Under the pieces are notes generated by a model. That model saw nothing but the letters and a program-made list of their open reading frames with translations. It did no database searches and was not told the origin of the DNA. A stretch of DNA of 47,585 nt from an uncultured bacterium (GTDB taxonomy: Bacteria; Patescibacteriota; Andersenbacteria; UBA10190; CAIZMI01): contig CAIZMI010000045.1 of the NCBI GenBank assembly GCA_903934015.1, positions 1 to 47,585 on the forward strand, in the 5' to 3' direction. The translations under genes and the position numbers were made by a program. Below are positions 4,035 through 34,298 of this stretch, in pieces (the stretch's first letter is position 1; each line of letters begins with the position of its first letter).

Positions 4035-4135
4035 GTATGCGGTATTAAGTATGTTGTATGCTGTATTTTCGTGTTTTCGCGGGTGTTGGTTCGGGATCAT
4101 CGTATACAACATACTGCATACTAAATACAACATAC
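4035..4135. repeat. GTATNNN-heptad inverted-repeat element, copy A (short core)
   Basis: Left arm GTATGCG GTATTAA GTATGTT GTATGCT GTATTTT; right arm on reverse strand GTATGTT GTATTTA GTATGCA GTATGTT GTATACG. Lies between the ABC ATPase stop (4135) and the permease start (4030). Confidence 0.85.
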
Positions 4136-15512: not shown

Positions 15513-15586
15513 ATAAAACCCACAATCAATATTGAAACTGCATTGTCTGCGGAAGATGCAGTTTTAATATCAATTGTGGGTTTTAT
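15513..15586. repeat. Long stem-loop (31-nt arms, 3 mismatches) with loop TGTCTGCGGAAG
   Basis: ATAAAACCCACAATCAATATTGAAACTGCAT / ATGCAGTTTTAATATCAATTGTGGGTTTTAT; loop shared with 20391-20401. Confidence 0.85.
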
Positions 15587-15597
15587 TTGTGGCATGT

Positions 15598-17254: not shown

Positions 17255-18379
17255 ATGACTAAAATTGCTTTTGTAACCAATGCCCCTCCGTTTTCAGGGA
17301 TGGGAAAGCCTGCAAGAGAGGTCTTTTCCCGTCTTAGAGAAAACAATATCGATTCCGATTTTTTTTATCTAGACGCTAGTCATGGGGAGATATTAAAAAA
17401 CGACGAAAAGATCGTTGGGTTAAGAGATTTGCCAAGACCATTGGGCGTGAAACCTGTTCAATGGTGGCGTCTTGCGCGAAAATTACCAAAGCAAGGGTAC
17501 GATTTTTGGCATATTGGAAACCAAACATTGTCTTTTATTCCTCGACAGAATTTTCTACTTACAGTTTATGATCTGATTGAGTTGGTGGATCCGCAGGAAA
17601 TGTTTGGTAGTTTTGTCGCGAAATATTTGTATAAAGGTATTTCAAGGGCTAAACATATTATTTGTGTTTCCGAATATACCAAAAAAGTTTTGCAAAAGGT
17701 CTACCATATTCCTGGTGAAAAAATAACGGTGATCCCCTTGGCGGTGGGTGAGCACTTCAAGCCACTCGAAAATATTCGTCAAAGTATCGGTTATCAAGAA
17801 TTTTTATCGCTAAACAATTTACCCAATAATGCAAAAATTATTTTGCACGTGGGGTCCGATCATCCAAGAAAGAATTTAAATTTATTAGCCGAGATTCTTG
17901 CGAGAGTAAAAAAGTCTGTGCCGAATGTTTACCTGATTAAGGTTGGTGCGCCGGGGCTGAAGGCGGGTCGTCTTGAATTTCAAAACAAATTAAGTGATCT
18001 AAAAGTTAGTGATGCGGTGCGGTTTATTGATAACACTACCGATGAAAAATTAGCGATGATTTATGCCATGGCCGACGTGTTCATTTTTCCTTCCTTGTAT
18101 GAAGGTTTTGGGGTCCCACCGCTCGAAGCGATGGCTTGTGGTTGTCCCGTCGTGGCTTCGAATGCTACCAGTATCCCGGAAGTTATTGGTGATGCTAGTC
18201 CAATGCACGATCCGACGGATATCGTCGGTTTTACTGCATCGGTTCAAAGGGTGTTAAATGATGCAAATTATGCCGCAGAATTAAAGCAAAAAGGTATTGA
18301 GAGAACCAAATTTTTCTCCTGGGATGAGATTGCGAAAAAGACGGCAGAAGTGTACGAAAGTATGCTGTATGCTGTATGA
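17255..18379 (+). CDS. Glycosyltransferase family 4
   Basis: Start at [24 protein letters not shown]; '[23 protein letters not shown]', '[35 protein letters not shown]'. The C-terminal residues SMLYAV are encoded by a heptad-repeat arm. Confidence 0.93.
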
Positions 18380-18436
18380 AGAATGCTGTATATGTTCGCG
18401 TTCGATACCGCATACAACATACTCAATACAGCATAC
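18360..18436. repeat. GTATNNN-heptad inverted-repeat element, copy B (short core)
   Basis: Left arm GTATGCT GTATGCT GTATGAA GAATGCT GTATATG; right arm on reverse strand GTATGCT GTATTGA GTATGTT GTATGCG GTATC. Confidence 0.82.
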
Positions 18437-18478: not shown

Positions 18479-20359
18479 ATGATTGAGAGAAAATTAACTA
18501 TCGGTAACCGCCTTATTGGATCAGGAGAACCATGCTTTATTATCGCGGAAGCAGGGGTAAATCATAATGGCAGCATGGTTCGGGCCAAACAATTGATTGA
18601 TGCGGCAGCCATGGCCGGTGCGGATGCAGTCAAATTTCAAAAGAGAAATCTCGAAGAAATTTATCAGAAAAAAGTATTGGATAATCCGAATGATTCTGAA
18701 CAAAAATATCAATTTTTGATCCCGATGCTCAAAGAGTTTGAATTAAGCAATGATCAATTCAAGGAGTTGGAAAAATATGCCAAGGAAAAAGGGATTATGT
18801 TTTTGGTTAATCCCTGGGATATTAAGAGTGCCGACAAACTTGAAGAACTTTTTGATATTCCTTTTTATAAAATAGGATCTCCCGATTTAACCAATTCGGA
18901 GCTTCTTTCACATGTCGCAGATTTTGGAAAGCCGATGGTTTTGTCGACAGGAATGAGTACGACTGAGGAAATTAAAGAAACAGTCAAACTGTTGGAAGAG
19001 AATAAAGTAAACTTTGCCCTATTGCATTGCAATAGTACATATCCGGCACCGTTCGACAAAATCAATTTGAAATTTATGGAAAAGTTGCGCGAGTTTGGCG
19101 TACCGGTTGGTTATTCCGGCCACGAGCGTGGCATTACTGTTGCCATGGGAGCTGTTGCGATGGGCGCGTCGATCATAGAGCGTCACTTAACGACCGATAA
19201 AAATTTGGAAGGAACAGATCATAAGGCCAGTTTATTGCCGGAAGAATTTAAGCAAATGGTGCAAGGAATTCGCGAAGTGGAAATGTCCCTGGGTAAAGCA
19301 GAGCGAATTTTGTCGCAAGGTGAAATGATGAATCGGGAAATTTTGGGAAAGAGTATTATTGTTGGAAAATTTATTCCTGACGGTACGATTATTACTCGCG
19401 AGATGTTGGAAATTAAGAGTCCCGCCAAGGGTTTATCGCCACAGCGTCTCAAGGATGTTGTGGGTGTTACGGCTCAACGCGATATTTTTGCAGGTGAGTT
19501 TATTACGGAAGATGATTTAAAGGATGATAGCTTGATGCGCAATTTTAGGAGTGATGATATTAAGTGGCAATGGGGTATCGTTGTTCGTTTTCATGATTTT
19601 CAAAAGTATTTGCCATACGAGCCGAAATTATTTGAATTTCATCTGAGCGATAAGGATCTGGAGATGAGTTTGCCTGACGGAAATTTTAAGCAAGAGTTGA
19701 TTGTTCATGCTCCTGAGTATAGTTATCGCACTTACTTGAATTTGGTTTCGGTAAATAAAGAAGAACGGGAACTCGCTTTGAAAAATTTGCAAAAGAGTTT
19801 GGACTTAACGAAAAAGCTAGGGGAAAAATTTACCGGTAAACCCAAATTTGTATTTCACTCCGGGGGTGTTACCTTGGCGCCATATGATAAACCACAAGAA
19901 TTGGTACAAATCCTCGTAGATATGATTGGTCGACTAAAGGGGGATGGGGTGGAGATCTTGCCGGAAAATTTGCCGGCTCGGAATTGGATTTTCGGCGGTG
20001 AATATGTAACAAACATTTTTATGTTTGCCGACGAAATTAAAAAGATTTTGGATCAAACTGGGCTTAAAATGTGCTTTGATACTTCGCATTCAATGTTGGC
20101 TTGTAACATGCATAATATTGATATTTACGAAGAAATTAAAAAGTTGCGACCATATATTAGTCACATGCATATCTCAGACGGTGCGGGTGTGGGGGAAGAG
20201 GGTCTTCAAGTTGGTAAAGGTGAAATTGATTGGGCGAAACTAATGGGGGTGATGGATGGTTATCAAAATACAATGGTGCCGGAAATTTGGCAGGGTCATT
20301 TGCATAACGGGCGTGGCTTTTTTCAGGCACTAACGCACTTGAAGGGGTATATGAAATGA
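18479..20359 (+). CDS. N-acetylneuraminate/nonulosonate synthase-like protein (NeuB family, SAF domain) fused to a C-terminal sugar isomerase/AP-endonuclease-2-like TIM barrel
   Basis: 'CFIIAEAGVNHNGSMVRAKQLIDAAAMAGADAVKFQK', 'GYSGHERGITVAMGAVAMGASIIERHLTTDKNLEGTDHKASL', SAF-like 'AKGLSPQRLKDVVGVTAQRDIFAGEFITEDDL'; C-terminal 'EILPENLPARNW...GLKMCFDTSHSMLACN...YISHMHISDGAG...GKGEIDW'. Confidence 0.9.
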   Translation: MIERKLTIGNRLIGSGEPCFIIAEAGVNHNGSMVRAKQLIDAAAMAGADAVKFQKRNLEEIYQKKVLDNPNDSEQKYQFLIPMLKEFELSNDQFKELEKYAKEKGIMFLVNPWDIKSADKLEELFDIPFYKIGSPDLTNSELLSHVADFGKPMVLSTGMSTTEEIKETVKLLEENKVNFALLHCNSTYPAPFDKINLKFMEKLREFGVPVGYSGHERGITVAMGAVAMGASIIERHLTTDKNLEGTDHKASLLPEEFKQMVQGIREVEMSLGKAERILSQGEMMNREILGKSIIVGKFIPDGTIITREMLEIKSPAKGLSPQRLKDVVGVTAQRDIFAGEFITEDDLKDDSLMRNFRSDDIKWQWGIVVRFHDFQKYLPYEPKLFEFHLSDKDLEMSLPDGNFKQELIVHAPEYSYRTYLNLVSVNKEERELALKNLQKSLDLTKKLGEKFTGKPKFVFHSGGVTLAPYDKPQELVQILVDMIGRLKGDGVEILPENLPARNWIFGGEYVTNIFMFADEIKKILDQTGLKMCFDTSHSMLACNMHNIDIYEEIKKLRPYISHMHISDGAGVGEEGLQVGKGEIDWAKLMGVMDGYQNTMVPEIWQGHLHNGRGFFQALTHLKGYMK

Positions 20360-20362
20360 ACA

Positions 20363-20430
20363 TTTTTACAACAAAACATCAAAATAGTTCTGTCTGCGGA
20401 ATGAACAATTTTGATGTTTTGTTGTAAAAA
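20363..20430. repeat. Long stem-loop (28-nt arms, 1 mismatch) with loop TGTCTGCGGAAT
   Basis: TTTTTACAACAAAACATCAAAATAGTTC / GAACAATTTTGATGTTTTGTTGTAAAAA; starts 3 nt after the TGA ending at 20359. Confidence 0.88.
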
Positions 20431-20450
20431 GCAGATTATTAATTTGAAAT

Positions 20451-24349: not shown

Positions 24350-25165
24350 ATGCCTAAAAACAATAAAATCGTTAATCCAAAGCGAGAACCAGTTAATGTT
24401 ATTGCTCTAATTCCTGCCAGGGGCGGACAGCAGAGTATAAAGTACAAGAATCTTTCCATGCTTGGTAAAAAATCACTTTTGCAATGGGCGATTGAAACGG
24501 CGCACGCATCAAAAAAAATTGATGCAGTGATTGTTTCTACAGAGGATAAAAAAATCGCCAGAGAAGCAAAAAAATTTGGTGCTTTAGTTGCGCCTCGGCC
24601 AGTCGAGTTTGCCCAACCGACCAGTGGTGACGCCGGTTTTTATACGCACGCTGTGCAGTGGATAGAGCAAGAATTTGGCTGGAAACCGGAATATATTGTT
24701 AATTTGCGTCCAACAACTCCTCTGCGTTTTGCTGAAGATGTTGATGCAATGATTGAATATATCCAGAAAAGTGGTGCGGATGGGATCAAAAGTGTGATGC
24801 ATACTCCGGTACATACCTACAAAATGTGGACGTTTGCCGGCAATGCGAATAAGAAAATTGGTGAAGCCGGGCAAATGAGCCCCATTCTAAACGATGACTA
24901 TCGAAAATTGCACGGCCCGGATCAGCCACGCCAAAGAATTTCGGAAATGTATCCGCAGTATTGGCAAGACGGTCAGGTGGATATTACGCGCCGGAAATTT
25001 ATTTTGCGTCCGGAGTGCTTGAAATATGAAAATGTTTTTGGACCGAATTTGCACGGTTATGTTTTAGATGGCCGTTTGATTGCCGATATTGATAGCGAGA
25101 AGGATTTGATTCGCGCGGAAAAACTTTACAAGCAGTATCTCAAGGAAAAGAAGGCGCAAAAGTAG
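24350..25165 (+). CDS. Acylneuraminate cytidylyltransferase-like protein (NeuA family)
   Basis: 'NVIALIPARGGQQSIKYKNLSMLGKKSLLQWAIETAHASKKIDAVIVSTEDKKIAREAKKFGA', 'EYIVNLRPTTPLRFAEDVDAMIEY'. Confidence 0.9.
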   Translation: MPKNNKIVNPKREPVNVIALIPARGGQQSIKYKNLSMLGKKSLLQWAIETAHASKKIDAVIVSTEDKKIAREAKKFGALVAPRPVEFAQPTSGDAGFYTHAVQWIEQEFGWKPEYIVNLRPTTPLRFAEDVDAMIEYIQKSGADGIKSVMHTPVHTYKMWTFAGNANKKIGEAGQMSPILNDDYRKLHGPDQPRQRISEMYPQYWQDGQVDITRRKFILRPECLKYENVFGPNLHGYVLDGRLIADIDSEKDLIRAEKLYKQYLKEKKAQK

Positions 25166-25168
25166 ACG

Positions 25169-25276
25169 CGTCTTTGCGAGCCATCGACCATTCGTGAGAA
25201 TGGGCGAGGCGCGGCAATCTAGTCGAAATTAGTGACGCTTGAGATTGCTTCGGCACTGAAGTGTCTCGCAAAGACG
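25169..25276. repeat. Palindromic interspersed repeat, copy 2 (intergenic, convergent genes)
   Basis: Perfect 12-bp ends CGTCTTTGCGAG (25169-25180) and CTCGCAAAGACG (25265-25276); internal GGCAATCT...AGATTGCTTCGGC, same family as 2246-2348. Confidence 0.85.
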
Positions 25277-25284
25277 ACTGAACC

Positions 25285-26487
25285 TTAAACCAATTTCTGA
25301 ATTTCTTCCATTGTCCTGTGACAAGATGAACCGTCCAAAAAGGAAATAATATTTTTGCAGCTTTGCACACGGCCGTCACGGTCTTTTTCAGGGTGCTCCA
25401 AATAATCATTGATGGCAGGAATTAAGTCGGGACGTTTTTTGATGACGCGCACGCCACCGCCGGAAACAATGTCGCGATAATGTTCCTTAAAATCTTTTAC
25501 CACCATCGATTTCCTCCAGTTCCACCAATCGAGTGGTTTTCCGTATAATACGCAAATTGTTGGTCGATCACCGAGCATTGATTCCACGGCGGCAGATGAA
25601 GAGAAATTCACCATCACATCTGTGTATTTCCAGAGAGCTACAAGCATATACATCTCACGCATTGTCGGATTGAAATTGAAATCTTTGTGTGGGGAATTGT
25701 CGCGGCGACCAAACGAATAACGTAAGGTGTAATTATATTTATCGGCCCAATGTTGATGCATGGAAGGTTTTCCGCTTCCAGGGTGCATTGATGCGTAAAG
25801 CTGTAAGTCTTCGGGCAAACTGCCGTCTTGTTTGGCGATACCAATTTGTTCCGCAACGTTGGACATGTCATAAAGTTCAACTGTTGCAATGTGTAATAGT
25901 CGTTTGCTTGGGTCTAAACCTAGGTACTCAAATAGTTCTTCGCGTGAAGGAATTCTGTTTGTGTGAGAAAAAAGGTCAAAACGCGGGGCGCCGGTAACGG
26001 CGACTTGTTCTTCGTTGACTTCTGGAAATTCACGTAGAAGATGATCTTTCATGATTTGGTTCCAGACAATAATTTTATCGGGAATAACTTGTTCTTTTCG
26101 AAGTCGCGCCATTTTCCAAATATTGTCCCAGGATTCAATAAAGGTGCATGTTTTTAAACCAAGTTTTTTGGCAACGCGAAGAATTGGTCGATCAACAACA
26201 TCTCGGCCTGTTGTTGTTGTTAGAACCAAATCCGGCTGATATTTTTTGTAAATGACTTCTAAGTTTGCTTCCGTTTCCGGTTTGTCCCAGGCTTCTGATT
26301 TAATTTCTTCAAAACTAAAACGGTGGCGAGGATATTCTGAATGGGGGAAGAACTCATCTGCCCACGGCGCGCCGGGCGTGATTATTACGTAGTTCCAGGT
26401 GTACTTGTTAATCAAGAGCTCCCGCATTGGTTGGAGTAGGGCGCGGTGGTGGGATCCGGATGGGACTGAAATTGCAATGGTAGGCAT
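25285..26487 (-). CDS. GT-B-like surface carbohydrate biosynthesis protein
   Basis: 400-aa ORF: 'MPTIAISVPSGSHHRALLQPMRELL', 'KIIVWNQIMKDHLLREFPEVNEEQVAVTGAPRFDLF', 'VMVNFSSSAAVESMLGDRPTICVLYGKPLDW'. Confidence 0.75.
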   Translation of the reverse strand: MPTIAISVPSGSHHRALLQPMRELLINKYTWNYVIITPGAPWADEFFPHSEYPRHRFSFEEIKSEAWDKPETEANLEVIYKKYQPDLVLTTTTGRDVVDRPILRVAKKLGLKTCTFIESWDNIWKMARLRKEQVIPDKIIVWNQIMKDHLLREFPEVNEEQVAVTGAPRFDLFSHTNRIPSREELFEYLGLDPSKRLLHIATVELYDMSNVAEQIGIAKQDGSLPEDLQLYASMHPGSGKPSMHQHWADKYNYTLRYSFGRRDNSPHKDFNFNPTMREMYMLVALWKYTDVMVNFSSSAAVESMLGDRPTICVLYGKPLDWWNWRKSMVVKDFKEHYRDIVSGGGVRVIKKRPDLIPAINDYLEHPEKDRDGRVQSCKNIISFLDGSSCHRTMEEIQKLV

Positions 26488-26501: not shown

Positions 26502-27767
26502 ATGGATAAAATGAACAAAAAAGACAATAAATTGCAGGCTAAATCTAATTTTGCCAAATTTAGTTTGTCGAGTTTCTTCAGGCTTGTGGGAAAGATTAGA
26601 ATAAAAAGTCGGGGTGAAAATCAGGTCGACAATAAAATCGATGGCAAAAATGTAATGGTTGTTGCCGGTGATTTGGGCGGTTGGCATGCAACAGTAGTTG
26701 TTTTGGAGCAATTGGCAGATAGGGGAGCGAATGTATCTGTGGTTTTTTCCGGCCCAAGCCGGCGTGCGTTTTTGGAAAAGATTCTAGATTTAGATTCAAG
26801 ATTTATAATACACACTGGCGACACAGACGCTGTAGGGGCAATTCATGAATTGCCCCTATGTGAGTGCTACGATGTCGTTGTTGTTGCCCCGTCACAGTCT
26901 AAGGATGGTAATGATGAGACATTAAAAATTGTAAATGAATTTAAAGACAGTGTTCCTGTTTGCGTAATCGAAGACATGTGGGGAAGTGCAGTGCATTTTT
27001 TAATAAAAATAAAACCTCAAGTATTTGAAAGAGTGTCTGTTTTCGTGGTTGATCAGTTTGCAAAGAAGATGCTGATTGAAAGTACTGGTATTAAAGCGAG
27101 GCAAGTATTTGTGACCGGTGGTCCGCAATTTGATCGTGTATTGGAATTGAAAAAAGATTGGGATAAACAACGTAAACTGATTAGAGAAAATTTGTCGGAT
27201 GACTGCTTGGTTTATTTGGTTGCGGGTGGAGTGAATGGTACCGGTGAAATATTGGATTTGGTTAAATCGATATTGCGACCGCAAGATGTAATAATTTTCC
27301 GACAGCATTCACGTTCAACTGAAAAAGATAAAAAAAGAACAGAAGATGTTATTGAAAAAATAATGCAGGCGGGTGGAAAATTCCTAGAGATTGATAAAAA
27401 AATCGCCCCATATGCAGAATCACTTTTGGCAGGAGCGGATTTTGTGCTGTCTGGATTCAGTACCACAAATCGGTATGCAATTTTGCTTGGCATCGCAGGT
27501 ACGATTTATGTTGGCACAAAATCATTTAGAAAAGATTTGTGGGCGGAGAAGAAATTGAAACTACCACCCGAAGTAGAATTTGGTGCAGGGTGGTATGTGA
27601 GAAATATCAAAGAGATGAAGATGGTTGTCGAAGAAGTTTCGGCATCTGTAGCGGGGAAACGAAGAAAGGAAATAATAAAGAAACAACAAAAAATAGCGCA
27701 GTTTTGCGACGGAAAAGCGACGCAGCGAGTTATAGGGGTGATTGGAAGTTTACGGTCCGAATGCTAA
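26502..27767 (+). CDS. GT-B-like hypothetical protein with an internal palindromic repeat
   Basis: 421-aa ORF: 'VMVVAGDLGGWHATVVVLEQLADRGANVSVVFSG', 'VFVTGGPQFDRVLEL', 'VLSGFSTTNRYAILLGIAGTIYVG'. Start codon uncertain. Confidence 0.7.
   Translation: MDKMNKKDNKLQAKSNFAKFSLSSFFRLVGKIRIKSRGENQVDNKIDGKNVMVVAGDLGGWHATVVVLEQLADRGANVSVVFSGPSRRAFLEKILDLDSRFIIHTGDTDAVGAIHELPLCECYDVVVVAPSQSKDGNDETLKIVNEFKDSVPVCVIEDMWGSAVHFLIKIKPQVFERVSVFVVDQFAKKMLIESTGIKARQVFVTGGPQFDRVLELKKDWDKQRKLIRENLSDDCLVYLVAGGVNGTGEILDLVKSILRPQDVIIFRQHSRSTEKDKKRTEDVIEKIMQAGGKFLEIDKKIAPYAESLLAGADFVLSGFSTTNRYAILLGIAGTIYVGTKSFRKDLWAEKKLKLPPEVEFGAGWYVRNIKEMKMVVEEVSASVAGKRRKEIIKKQQKIAQFCDGKATQRVIGVIGSLRSEC
26833..26858. repeat. Perfect 26-bp palindrome inside a coding region
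   Basis: TAGGGGCAATTCATGAATTGCCCCTA; translated in frame as part of 'AVGAIHELPLCE'. Confidence 0.9.
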
Positions 27768-30549: not shown

Positions 30550-30641
30550 GTATGCTGTATTTAGTATGCTGTATGTTGTATCAAAACGAAGCGCGGGACG
30601 TCATGCAATATACCGCATACAACATACCGCATACTGCATAC
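30550..30641. repeat. GTATNNN-heptad inverted-repeat element, copy C (short core)
   Basis: Left arm GTATGCT GTATTTA GTATGCT GTATGTT GTATCAA; right arm on reverse strand GTATGCA GTATGCG GTATGTT GTATGCG GTATATT. Confidence 0.85.
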
Positions 30642-31348
30642 TAAGCATGCCTGCTAAACCGTATTGCCCACACCAGCCACAACGCTTCCCAGACTATCGA
30701 CTTGCTAATTTTTGATTTACCAACCCTTCGGTCGATAAAAACAATTGGCATTTCGGCGATGTTTGCATGGAGCTTATGGGCGCGGGAGTTCATTTCGATC
30801 TGAAAACCATAGCCATCTGCACGGACGCTTTTTAGGTCTATCTTTTTTAGTAGTTCCGCTTTCCAACATTTAAAGCCACCGGTTAGATCTGAAATCGGTA
30901 CGCCCGTTACCAAACGAGCATAAATATTCGCCCATTGGCTTAATAGACGACGATTTGTCGCCCAGTCGGATACTTTTCCGCCCTGCATATAGCGCGAACC
31001 GATGACCAAATCAGCTTTCTGAATTTTATTAACAAAGCGAAGAATATCATGCGGATCGTGAGAAAAATCCGCATCCATTTGGATAATTGCTTCGGCGTTA
31101 CGGTTTATAGCTTCTTGAAAACCAGCCAAGTATGCACGGCCGAGGCCTTCTTTCTTCGCGCGCGTAAACAATGAAACTTGTGGGTATTTTTGGGAATAAT
31201 CAGAAACAATTTTCCCCGTTCCGTCAGGAGAAGAGTCGTCTACAACAAGGATCGATAGGTCCGGAACCTGAAGACCAATAATTGTTTCGATTAAATTTCC
31301 AATATTCTCCTTCTCGTTATATGTAGGGATAACAACAGTTGTTTTCAT
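30641..31348 (-). CDS. Polyprenol monophosphomannose synthase-like glycosyltransferase (GT2)
   Basis: 'MKTTVVIPTYNEKENIGNLIETIIGL', 'ILVVDDSSPDGTGKIV', 'IIQMDADFSHDPHDILRFV', 'DLVIGSRYMQGGKVSDW'. Confidence 0.93.
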   Translation of the reverse strand: MKTTVVIPTYNEKENIGNLIETIIGLQVPDLSILVVDDSSPDGTGKIVSDYSQKYPQVSLFTRAKKEGLGRAYLAGFQEAINRNAEAIIQMDADFSHDPHDILRFVNKIQKADLVIGSRYMQGGKVSDWATNRRLLSQWANIYARLVTGVPISDLTGGFKCWKAELLKKIDLKSVRADGYGFQIEMNSRAHKLHANIAEMPIVFIDRRVGKSKISKSIVWEALWLVWAIRFSRHA

Positions 31349-31357
31349 TGGTTTTTA

Positions 31358-31852
31358 GTATGCTGTATTAAGTATGCGGTATGTTGTATGCGATTACGAA
31401 CGATTCATTGAACTATAGATGAGTCCATAAATTAACTTACTAACCAAAACTGTCTGCTTTGCAATATCATCAAACTCTTTAGTTGTTATGTATTTAAGAT
31501 CTCTACTAACAATAAATTGATTTTGTAGTTCCGTTAAGGAGCCTTTTGCAATGCCATAGAATTGTTGTTTTTCGCCTTTTGTGTTTCGACTAAATCCTTC
31601 GGCGATATTTGATGAAATTGATATCGCAGATCGTCGCATCTGACTGATTATTCCAAACAGTTCATCTTTTGGAAATTTTTTGGTTAATCCATAGGTCATT
31701 AAAACAATTTTATGGCTTTCTTGCCACGCCTTTAGTTGTGTAAATGAAGAAATTTTTGAATTAAATTGTACATTCATAATTTTTAATTGGTGTATTGTTT
31801 GTGATTTTGTCGTTTTGTGGATACAGCATACAACATACCGCATACTAAATAC
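31358..31852. mobile_element. Candidate mobile unit: four-helix-bundle gene bracketed by inverted GTATNNN-heptad arms (copy D)
   Basis: Left arm GTATGCT GTATTAA GTATGCG GTATGTT GTATGCG (31358-31392); right arm on reverse strand GTATTTA GTATGCG GTATGTT GTATGCT GTATCCA (31852-31818); ORF between them. Mobility is inferred. Confidence 0.6.
31394..31777 (-). CDS. Four helix bundle protein (S23 / 23S rRNA-intervening-sequence protein family)
   Basis: Start at MNVQFNSKISSFTQLKAWQESHKIVLMTYGLTKKFPKDELFGIISQMRRSAISISSNIAEGFSRNTKGEKQQFYGIAKGSLTELQNQF, classic family pattern. The longer ORF start at 31843 lies inside the repeat arm. Confidence 0.9.
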   Translation of the reverse strand: MNVQFNSKISSFTQLKAWQESHKIVLMTYGLTKKFPKDELFGIISQMRRSAISISSNIAEGFSRNTKGEKQQFYGIAKGSLTELQNQFIVSRDLKYITTKEFDDIAKQTVLVSKLIYGLIYSSMNRS

Positions 31853-31861
31853 CAGTCATCA

Positions 31862-32956
31862 TTAGATCAATCCTCTAGTTTTCAAAGCACTTACTAATTC
31901 AGCAAAAACCAGATCTACCGCTATTGTTGCAACGCAACTTTTATCCGATTGTCTGCCCGGTTCTTGCCAGGAGCGAAACTTAGCTGATTTGGCTTCAGTG
32001 GGAGATAGGTTTTTGCAAGGTTTTTCGCGCTTGAGAAAGCACGGCACATTACAAGTCGGACCATCAATCGTGATGTGGTATTTTTTTGGATCAGAAATAT
32101 GGGGGTTTAAAAAGAAACTTGGCGCGGCGCGGTGTAAGGGTTGTCCTCCGTAGAGACAAATTGTTTGTAATCCAGCTGCCGCTGCAAAATGAAGTGGACC
32201 GCTCATAACGCCAATGCCGATGTCGCAGGAACCGGCAAAAGCGATGTTTTCACGGAGTGTAAGTCCTCGGCCATCAAATGTCTTAGGATATTTTGCGCCG
32301 AACCAAATCGGGGTAATACCTAAATCAGTTTTAATTTTGTTTTCTAATTGTATAGTTTTTTCTGGATCCCAGCCGCGCATTGTTTGGCCATTAATACTTT
32401 CCAAAAATACGATCCGTGGACCAGGGAATTGTTCGGCAACACTTTTACCAACTTTCCAATCATTTTCGGATCCGTAAAATGGATAATTGCCATTGACAAT
32501 ATTTTTTAGACCCAATTGTTCAAAAACTTTTTCTACCGGATTATCGAATATTCCTAGACCAAAATCGAGTTCCGCGACAAGGTCGTAATCTTTTTTAACC
32601 GATTCATAGTGTTTTTTATTCCAGGTGGGATAAGACTTGCCACCTTCATGACAAATTTCCCCTTCCAAGGATAATATTTTATCGTGCCAATGGACTAAAT
32701 GATCAATATGCGGGTTTTCTTGCATAAGAGAAATACAAAATCCATCTTGGTTTCTTTCACCCCAATGTCCCTTGTGATCTTTGTAGCCCCAAGCAGTGAC
32801 GAGAGTAATTTCAGTTTGTGGGTATTGTTGTGATAAAACCTCAAGAGCCGGTCCAACCAAAAAAAGATGGTCGCCCATATTACCGACGTGTTTTAAGAGA
32901 ATTTTTTTGGGTTGATTCACGGGTGTAGAATAGTTATTTTTATAATAGTACATCAT
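31862..32956 (-). CDS. Glycosyltransferase family 9-like protein
   Basis: 'KKILLKHVGNMGDHLFLVGPALEVLSQQYPQTEITLVTAWGYKDH', 'ENIAFAGSCDIGIGVMSGPLHFAAAAGLQTICLYGG'. Confidence 0.85.
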   Translation of the reverse strand: MMYYYKNNYSTPVNQPKKILLKHVGNMGDHLFLVGPALEVLSQQYPQTEITLVTAWGYKDHKGHWGERNQDGFCISLMQENPHIDHLVHWHDKILSLEGEICHEGGKSYPTWNKKHYESVKKDYDLVAELDFGLGIFDNPVEKVFEQLGLKNIVNGNYPFYGSENDWKVGKSVAEQFPGPRIVFLESINGQTMRGWDPEKTIQLENKIKTDLGITPIWFGAKYPKTFDGRGLTLRENIAFAGSCDIGIGVMSGPLHFAAAAGLQTICLYGGQPLHRAAPSFFLNPHISDPKKYHITIDGPTCNVPCFLKREKPCKNLSPTEAKSAKFRSWQEPGRQSDKSCVATIAVDLVFAELVSALKTRGLI

Positions 32957-34097: not shown

Positions 34098-34098
34098 A

Positions 34099-34277
34099 AG
34101 GGCTTGGTAATAAATAAACACTTCAAATTTTGTTCAATACGCCTCAAATACGGCCGCTTTGATTGAACAAAATCTTGAGACGTACTGTACGTACGTTGAA
34201 AGATTTTTGATTGAGAAGTGGTTGTAGTTGAGGATGTAGTGGACATAAGATGAAGTGTTTATTTATTACCAAGCCCT
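34099..34277. repeat. 179-bp element with perfect 27-bp terminal inverted repeats and an inner hairpin
   Basis: AGGGCTTGGTAATAAATAAACACTTCA (34099-34125) and TGAAGTGTTTATTTATTACCAAGCCCT (34251-34277); inner ATTTTGTTCAAT (34127-34138)/ATTGAACAAAAT (34162-34173). Confidence 0.9.
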
Positions 34278-34298
34278 AGTGATACGTTGATGGTTGAA

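Follow-up and report, generated by a model that had tools for sequence, protein, structure and literature searches.

An S23 four-helix-bundle gene between inverted heptad arrays: a probable mobile relative of the 23S rRNA intervening sequences

In a contig of 47,585 nucleotides from an uncultured bacterium of the Patescibacteriota (CAIZMI010000045.1; its whole length is called the window here), a short gene of the S23 family lies between two genes of glycosyltransferase type and is bounded on each side by an array of five GTATNNN heptads. A preliminary description of this DNA regarded gene and arrays as one transposable or intervening-sequence-like unit. This raises the question whether the unit has indeed been inserted as such, and how an element that carries only this gene could move. 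We suggest that the unit is probably a mobile element, namely the generic form of the intervening sequence (IVS) of 23S rRNA, residing mostly outside rRNA.

The structure is exactly as first described. The left arm consists of the units GTATGCT, GTATTAA, GTATGCG, GTATGTT and GTATGCG, and the right arm, read on the minus strand from 31852 to 31818, of GTATTTA, GTATGCG, GTATGTT, GTATGCT and GTATCCA. The polarity is constant, with GTAT reading inward from each end, and the sequence AGTATGCGGTATGTTGTATGC is indeed common to both arms as inverted copies. The S23 gene fits tightly between them, its stop codon being separated by 1 nt from the left arm, and an alternative in-frame ATG within the right arm would extend the protein to 149 aa (31394–31843). 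It is the sole gene between the arms, and the DDE, Y1 or serine transposase of a classical insertion sequence is absent.

Evidence for insertion at this locus comes from other genomes of the order, among them the congener G001, whose contig 8 is syntenic with the window. At the site occupied by the S23 gene in the window, which is the junction of a gene resembling glycosyltransferase family 9 (GT9) and a gene of family 2 (GT2), G001 contains only GTATATAGTATTTAGTATATAGTATATGGAATTATTAACC, corresponding to an arm, followed by a remnant similar to the S23 start. Conversely, a complete S23 element of G001 separates the Glu-dehydrogenase gene from the GT2 gene; at this place the window has an ORF-less arm pair (a pair without open reading frame). 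Six members of the order that are less closely related have no S23 at the GT9-like/GT2 junction, which is compact in them: one gene comes directly after the other, with 14–94 nt between the matched ends. A further orthologous junction, with flanks 81–84% identical, is occupied by different S23 elements in G000 (C37:10435–10665) and G001 (C6:10967–11299); the two proteins have no BLAST similarity (E=0.45) and the heptads are CAATTTT and GGGTACA, which suggests a hot spot or a replacement. No target duplication above background was found in the genus of the window.

The cleanest comparisons are those of cyanobacterial plasmids. The full sites L208 and L215 and the empty sites L217 and L218 have flanks that are 97.6–98.1% identical, the difference being the element, and a GTAAT direct repeat stands on either side of the element at this site. 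Elsewhere the same junction carries a remnant consisting of one arm and a fragment of S23 (L219) or an ORF-less pair (L224). A second junction is again found full (L207), with an ORF-less pair (L229) and empty (L233); a third is full in L209 and L227 and empty in L221, L222, L225 and L226; and the element within the cmr operon of strain PCC 7003 (L206) is missing from PCC 7002 (L220). TTCTA was considered as a second 5-bp target duplication and was withdrawn as ambiguous, because these letters can also be the end of the right arm. The search for empty orthologous sites that the preliminary description had called for has thus succeeded both among the six order-mates and on nearly identical plasmid backbones, and the full, one-arm and empty sites support its view of gene plus arms as one unit. 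That this unit was inserted as a whole is almost certain.

S23 elements were also seen inside CRISPR-Cas operons (clustered regularly interspaced short palindromic repeats) of the plasmids L206, L210 and L212, in the cas10/cmr3 and cas6/cas4 gaps, and these may explain the IVP genes listed as CRISPR-linked. The arms of L206, from Picosynechococcus PCC 7003, apparently consist of units of ∼8 bp similar to GGAGATAA and not of heptads.

Table 1. Position of the S23 element, its parts, its neighbours and selected ORF-less arm pairs in the window
Feature	Position	Strand	Remarks
Complete S23 element, two inverted heptad arms and S23 gene	31358–31852	−	495 bp
Left arm, five GTATNNN heptads; downstream arm of the S23 gene	31358–31392	+	direct reading
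Right arm, five GTATNNN heptads; upstream arm of the S23 gene	31818–31852	−	direct reading
S23 (23S_rRNA_IVP) four-helix-bundle gene, 127 aa	31394–31777	−	PF05635 E=1.4e-35; TIGR02436 E=1.6e-32; AlphaFold pLDDT 94
GT2 gene, flanking; next gene of the interrupted operon	30641–31348	−	PF00535 E=1.1e-30
Weakly GT9/heptosyltransferase-like gene, flanking; preceding in the operon	31862–32956	−	Pfam E=0.0048; TIGR02201 E=1.1e-5
ORF-less arm pair	30550–30641		orthologous G001 junction with complete S23 element
ORF-less arm pair	4035–4135		ORF-less pair at the same junction in G001
ORF-less arm pair	18360–18436		ORF-less pair at the same junction in G001

Concerning the neighbours (Table 1), both had been described as glycosyltransferases; this holds for the GT2 gene, whereas the other is only weakly GT9-like. 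Its adjacency to GT2 is conserved across the order.

Is the association of S23 with heptad arrays a peculiarity of this genome? We collected 120 S23 loci from a scan of genome contigs, from 59 related genomes and from plasmids; they belong to many phyla, those beyond the candidate phyla radiation (CPR) and the cyanobacteria coming from the contig scan. An array was called when the best 28-column lag-7 score was at least 17, and flanks 0.7–1.2 kb away served as control. Among the 118 loci with usable flanks on both sides, period-7 arrays were found upstream in 82%, downstream in 77%, on both sides in 72% and on either side in 87%, compared to 5.6% of the control flanks. Lags of 5, 6, 8 and 9 were low (at most 12% per side), and lag 14, a multiple of 7, was high. 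The arms are inverted in 68 of the 71 loci with two clear arms, and 117 of 162 arms have four to five units. S23 genes are therefore massively enriched between such arms, as the preliminary description had required of its proposal. These data also bear on a simpler explanation, by which the arrays are simple repeats generated by slippage and S23 is a chance neighbour. Many bacteria have an excess of heptanucleotide repeats, for which polymerase slippage was put forward as a source (PMC4679880; PMC4692102), and the unit number differs among Coxiella strains (PMC4990558). However, the unit number hardly varies within a genome, and the arrays form inverted pairs which bracket most S23 genes. The enrichment and inversion statistics already refute this explanation, and we give it practically no credence.

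The heptad itself differs between elements and follows the protein. The consensus heptads include GTATNNN, GAATNNN, GTAGNNN, GATTNNN, GTTGATC, GAGTCAN, GGGTNNN, GGGAACA and GGTGACA, and the higher the identity of two S23 proteins, the more similar are their heptads (Mantel r=0.44, compared to at most 0.15 in 1000 permutations). As this correlation shows, gene and arms are inherited together; it is by itself not proof of recognition. In G001, each of three S23 genes has a heptad of its own (GTATNNN, a GAATNAT-like heptad and GGGTACA), and therefore the repeat belongs to the element and not to the genome. Arrays of four GTAT units occur in eight of the 59 genomes, all eight of which have S23 (25 of the 59 have S23 overall). 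It is likely that each S23 protein specifically recognises its own heptads.

In the window, three consecutive GTATNNN units with at most one mismatch are matched 27 times, while 0.11 matches are expected, and in the genome (1.34 Mb in 64 contigs) four units are matched 59 times (32+27) compared to twice (1+1) for the reversed pattern. The examined genome stretches contain 14 inverted pairs and seven single arms, and only one of these pairs, that of the window element, encloses an S23 gene. The unit number is nearly fixed, with five units in 21 of 28 paired arms, and four units in 20 of 22 paired arms of G001. The ORF-less pairs of G001 retain the inner ends of the element including the S23 start (GTATATGGAWTTATC), and GTATATGGAWTTAT is common to these pairs and the S23 element, as is typical of derivatives resembling miniature inverted-repeat transposable elements (MITEs). 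G001 also has ORF-less pairs at junctions which are bare in the window (window positions 20359–20447 and 25153–25285). The earlier proposal that ORF-less copies are derivatives thus holds for G001 and for the cyanobacterial sites, and for the copies of the window we infer the same descent; overall, it is very likely that ORF-less pairs descend from S23 elements.

The arms pair in the predicted RNA fold (z=−4.6) and form strong hairpins, like the stems of IVSs. We considered whether the hairpin is kept by covariation between the arms and rejected this, as partner arms agree in their NNN positions (0.55 and 0.82) no better than do arms taken from different loci (0.63 and 0.82). Because of this each arm is seemingly maintained separately, and the arms are probably each read by themselves and not kept for pairing.

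The position of the elements is also characteristic. In 77 loci with a preceding gene on the same strand, the median distance between the stop codon of that gene and the start of the upstream array is 1 nt; for the S23 start and stop codons the median distances to the arrays are 4 and −4 nt. Of 111 S23 genes, 92 are co-oriented with both neighbours and six are antisense to both. The elements therefore reside in operons, in sense and apparently without a promoter of their own; the placement could be caused by selection for expression or by a transcription-linked mechanism. With an array directly before the start codon, strong hairpins and a basic protein (median pI 9.3), one might also regard S23 as an RNA-binding regulator whose arrays are operators in the 5′ untranslated region and the terminator, no mobile element being involved. 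The empty sites, the one-arm remnant, the ORF-less derivatives and the different S23 elements at one junction contradict this. We consider this reading very improbable, and the empty sites in particular argue strongly against regulation as the whole story, although it could be one function of S23.

The properties of the protein might give a hint how the unit is moved. S23 is predicted with confidence to be a four-helix bundle (Table 1), and the solved relatives 2gsc and 2rld have five chains each; a Xanthomonas homologue was crystallised as a toroidal homopentamer (PMC4990558). Among 63 sequences 11 columns are invariant (Y29, Q46, R49, S53, N57, A59, E60, G61, F73, S80 and E83), and the polar residues, judged from their conservation, could belong to an active site or to a surface for specific binding. 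S23 is moreover distantly related to Avd, the partner of the reverse transcriptase of diversity-generating retroelements (DGRs), as shown by matches to phrog_3206 (E=5.5e-11) and NF033474 (E=1.7e-4) and by Foldseek matches to chains of Avd and of DGR ribonucleoproteins. This kinship leads to another explanation, by which the arms are mobilised in trans by an IS200/IS605-type Y1 transposase or a reverse transcriptase and S23 is an accessory or passenger. The genome of the window does have four RVT_1 and five Y1 matches, and an RNA intermediate would be in keeping with the bias towards the sense strand. On the other hand, RVT_1 was not found in the S23-bearing genomes G001, G017, G031, G037 and G039, some of them complete, nor Y1 in the complete S23-bearing genomes G033 and G037, so that both enzymes were rejected as obligatory partner; across phyla, moreover, the heptad changes with the S23 protein. 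Mobility in trans therefore appears improbable to us, but less so than regulation. Other searches gave no match: tblastn for S23 in 50,697 phage records, Rfam for known RNA families in the window, and PADLOC for a defence system.

We thus return to the element that is mobile by means of its own protein. As the site comparisons show, the whole unit is inserted between genes, as a rule in sense and where the upstream gene has its stop codon. It would be expressed from the host operon, as no promoter is evident and the S23 start lies at the edge of the upstream array. The homopentameric S23 ring would then bind the arrays, each family knowing its own ends. A stoichiometry of about one heptad per subunit is suggested because the five-fold ring faces arms of four to five heptads; the TRAP ring, which binds repeated RNA triplets, offers an analogy, and on this analogy we put forward the five-heptad pentamer tentatively, inclining slightly to doubt. 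Binding of both arms would bring the ends together, at the level of either DNA or RNA, and thereby enable movement, movement through RNA being rather unlikely; the catalytic step might be the work of S23 or of general host enzymes. Once transcribed, the arms may form a hairpin which is cut out by RNase III as in the rRNA form, limiting the harm to the operon; the chances that copies outside rRNA are processed in this way are about even. Internal deletions, in part seen in the comparisons above, would leave behind arm pairs without ORF, miniature elements that either persist or spread.

Several points weigh against this proposal. About 13% of the S23 loci have no array on either side in the lag-7 test, and G010 has dispersed GTAT arrays unlike the heptads of its two S23 genes. 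A target-site duplication (GTAAT) is seen at one cyanobacterial site and is ambiguous or absent at others. We know of no catalytic site on record for S23 and of no binding target. The sense and stop-codon bias may reflect selection only, the match of pentamer and heptads is an analogy, and mobility is deduced from comparing sequences.

How does the element relate to known systems? The IVSs of 23S rRNA, for example from Leptospira and Coxiella, share with it the PF05635 family, stem-forming inverted ends, sense orientation and approximate size (428 nt compared to the 495 of the window element), and in Coxiella GACAGAT heptamers precede the S23 ORF (PMC4990558). ORF-bearing 23S IVSs are cut by RNase III. 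In its mode of working the window element seems to resemble an IVS. In contrast to them, it lies between protein genes and not in rRNA, both of its arms are defined heptad arrays, and it has many ORF-less relatives in its genome. Insertions with 23S_rRNA_IVP are on record for CPR rRNA (PMC11270868), and IVSs were long ago suggested to be remnants of transposition or mobile elements. The element had been announced as undescribed; this does not apply to the rRNA-embedded form, which is the known 23S IVS with its noted heptamers, whereas no paper joining S23 and heptads was found in the open-access literature, subscription papers being outside the search. Heptanucleotide repeats such as the cyanobacterial short tandemly repeated repetitive sequences (STRR), the P6b repeats of the tRNA-Leu intron, which fold as a hairpin (PMC3488679), GGGAATC of Xanthomonas and TAACTGA of Beggiatoaceae likewise have period 7 and are intergenic. 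They often form convergent inverted arrays (70 pairs in X. campestris; PMC4692102), and the orphan repeats of Xanthomonas, Nostoc and Beggiatoaceae have been described without a protein (PMC4679880; PMC4692102). MITEs and the repetitive extragenic palindromes with their transposases (REP-RAYT) are also small dispersed inverted pairs, apparently internally deleted from a gene-bearing form, but the S23 element has tandem heptad arrays as ends, a gene inside and no Y1 or DDE transposase in the unit; Y1, present in G000 and G001, is missing from the complete carriers mentioned above. Finally, the Avd of DGRs is a homologous basic four-helix bundle, but no reverse transcriptase was seen with the S23 elements, nor a template or variable repeat (the repeats themselves were not searched for).

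Taken furthest, these relations would define a new class of element, whose sole protein, a pentameric four-helix-bundle ring, would read tandem heptad arrays at about one heptad per subunit and mobilise the unit with no transposase, recombinase or reverse transcriptase of known kind, and of which most dispersed bacterial heptad repeats (STRR, GGGAATC, TAACTGA) and the ORF-bearing 23S IVSs are relics or members. We consider this possible but doubt it more than the stoichiometry; the S23 link shown here concerns other heptads and is for these three repeats a prediction. S23 proteins are annotated across bacteria without function, and linking them with IVSs and repeats gives them a testable role. 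It also suggests a source for the widespread 7-base repeats, repeatedly described as orphans, and for the IVSs, whose origin has been unexplained since 1990, and it points to an element family possibly moving by an undescribed route. A repeat-binding protein was explicitly wanted (PMC4679880), and the defined pairs of protein and array are now available for binding and mobility tests.

The window contains further repeats. At 34098–34278 there is a MITE-like inverted-repeat element of ∼180 bp with AGGGCTTGGTAATAAATAAACACTTC... ends, which has many copies in G001 and is absent from the orthologous G001 junction, giving a clean empty site. A short palindrome-like repeat at 26822–26860 has at least ten matches in G001, in both orientations. 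Two intergenic hairpins (15520–15590 and 20370–20440) have the loop TGTCTGCGGAA in common; they are the only two copies in the genome and have no counterpart at the orthologous junctions of G001.
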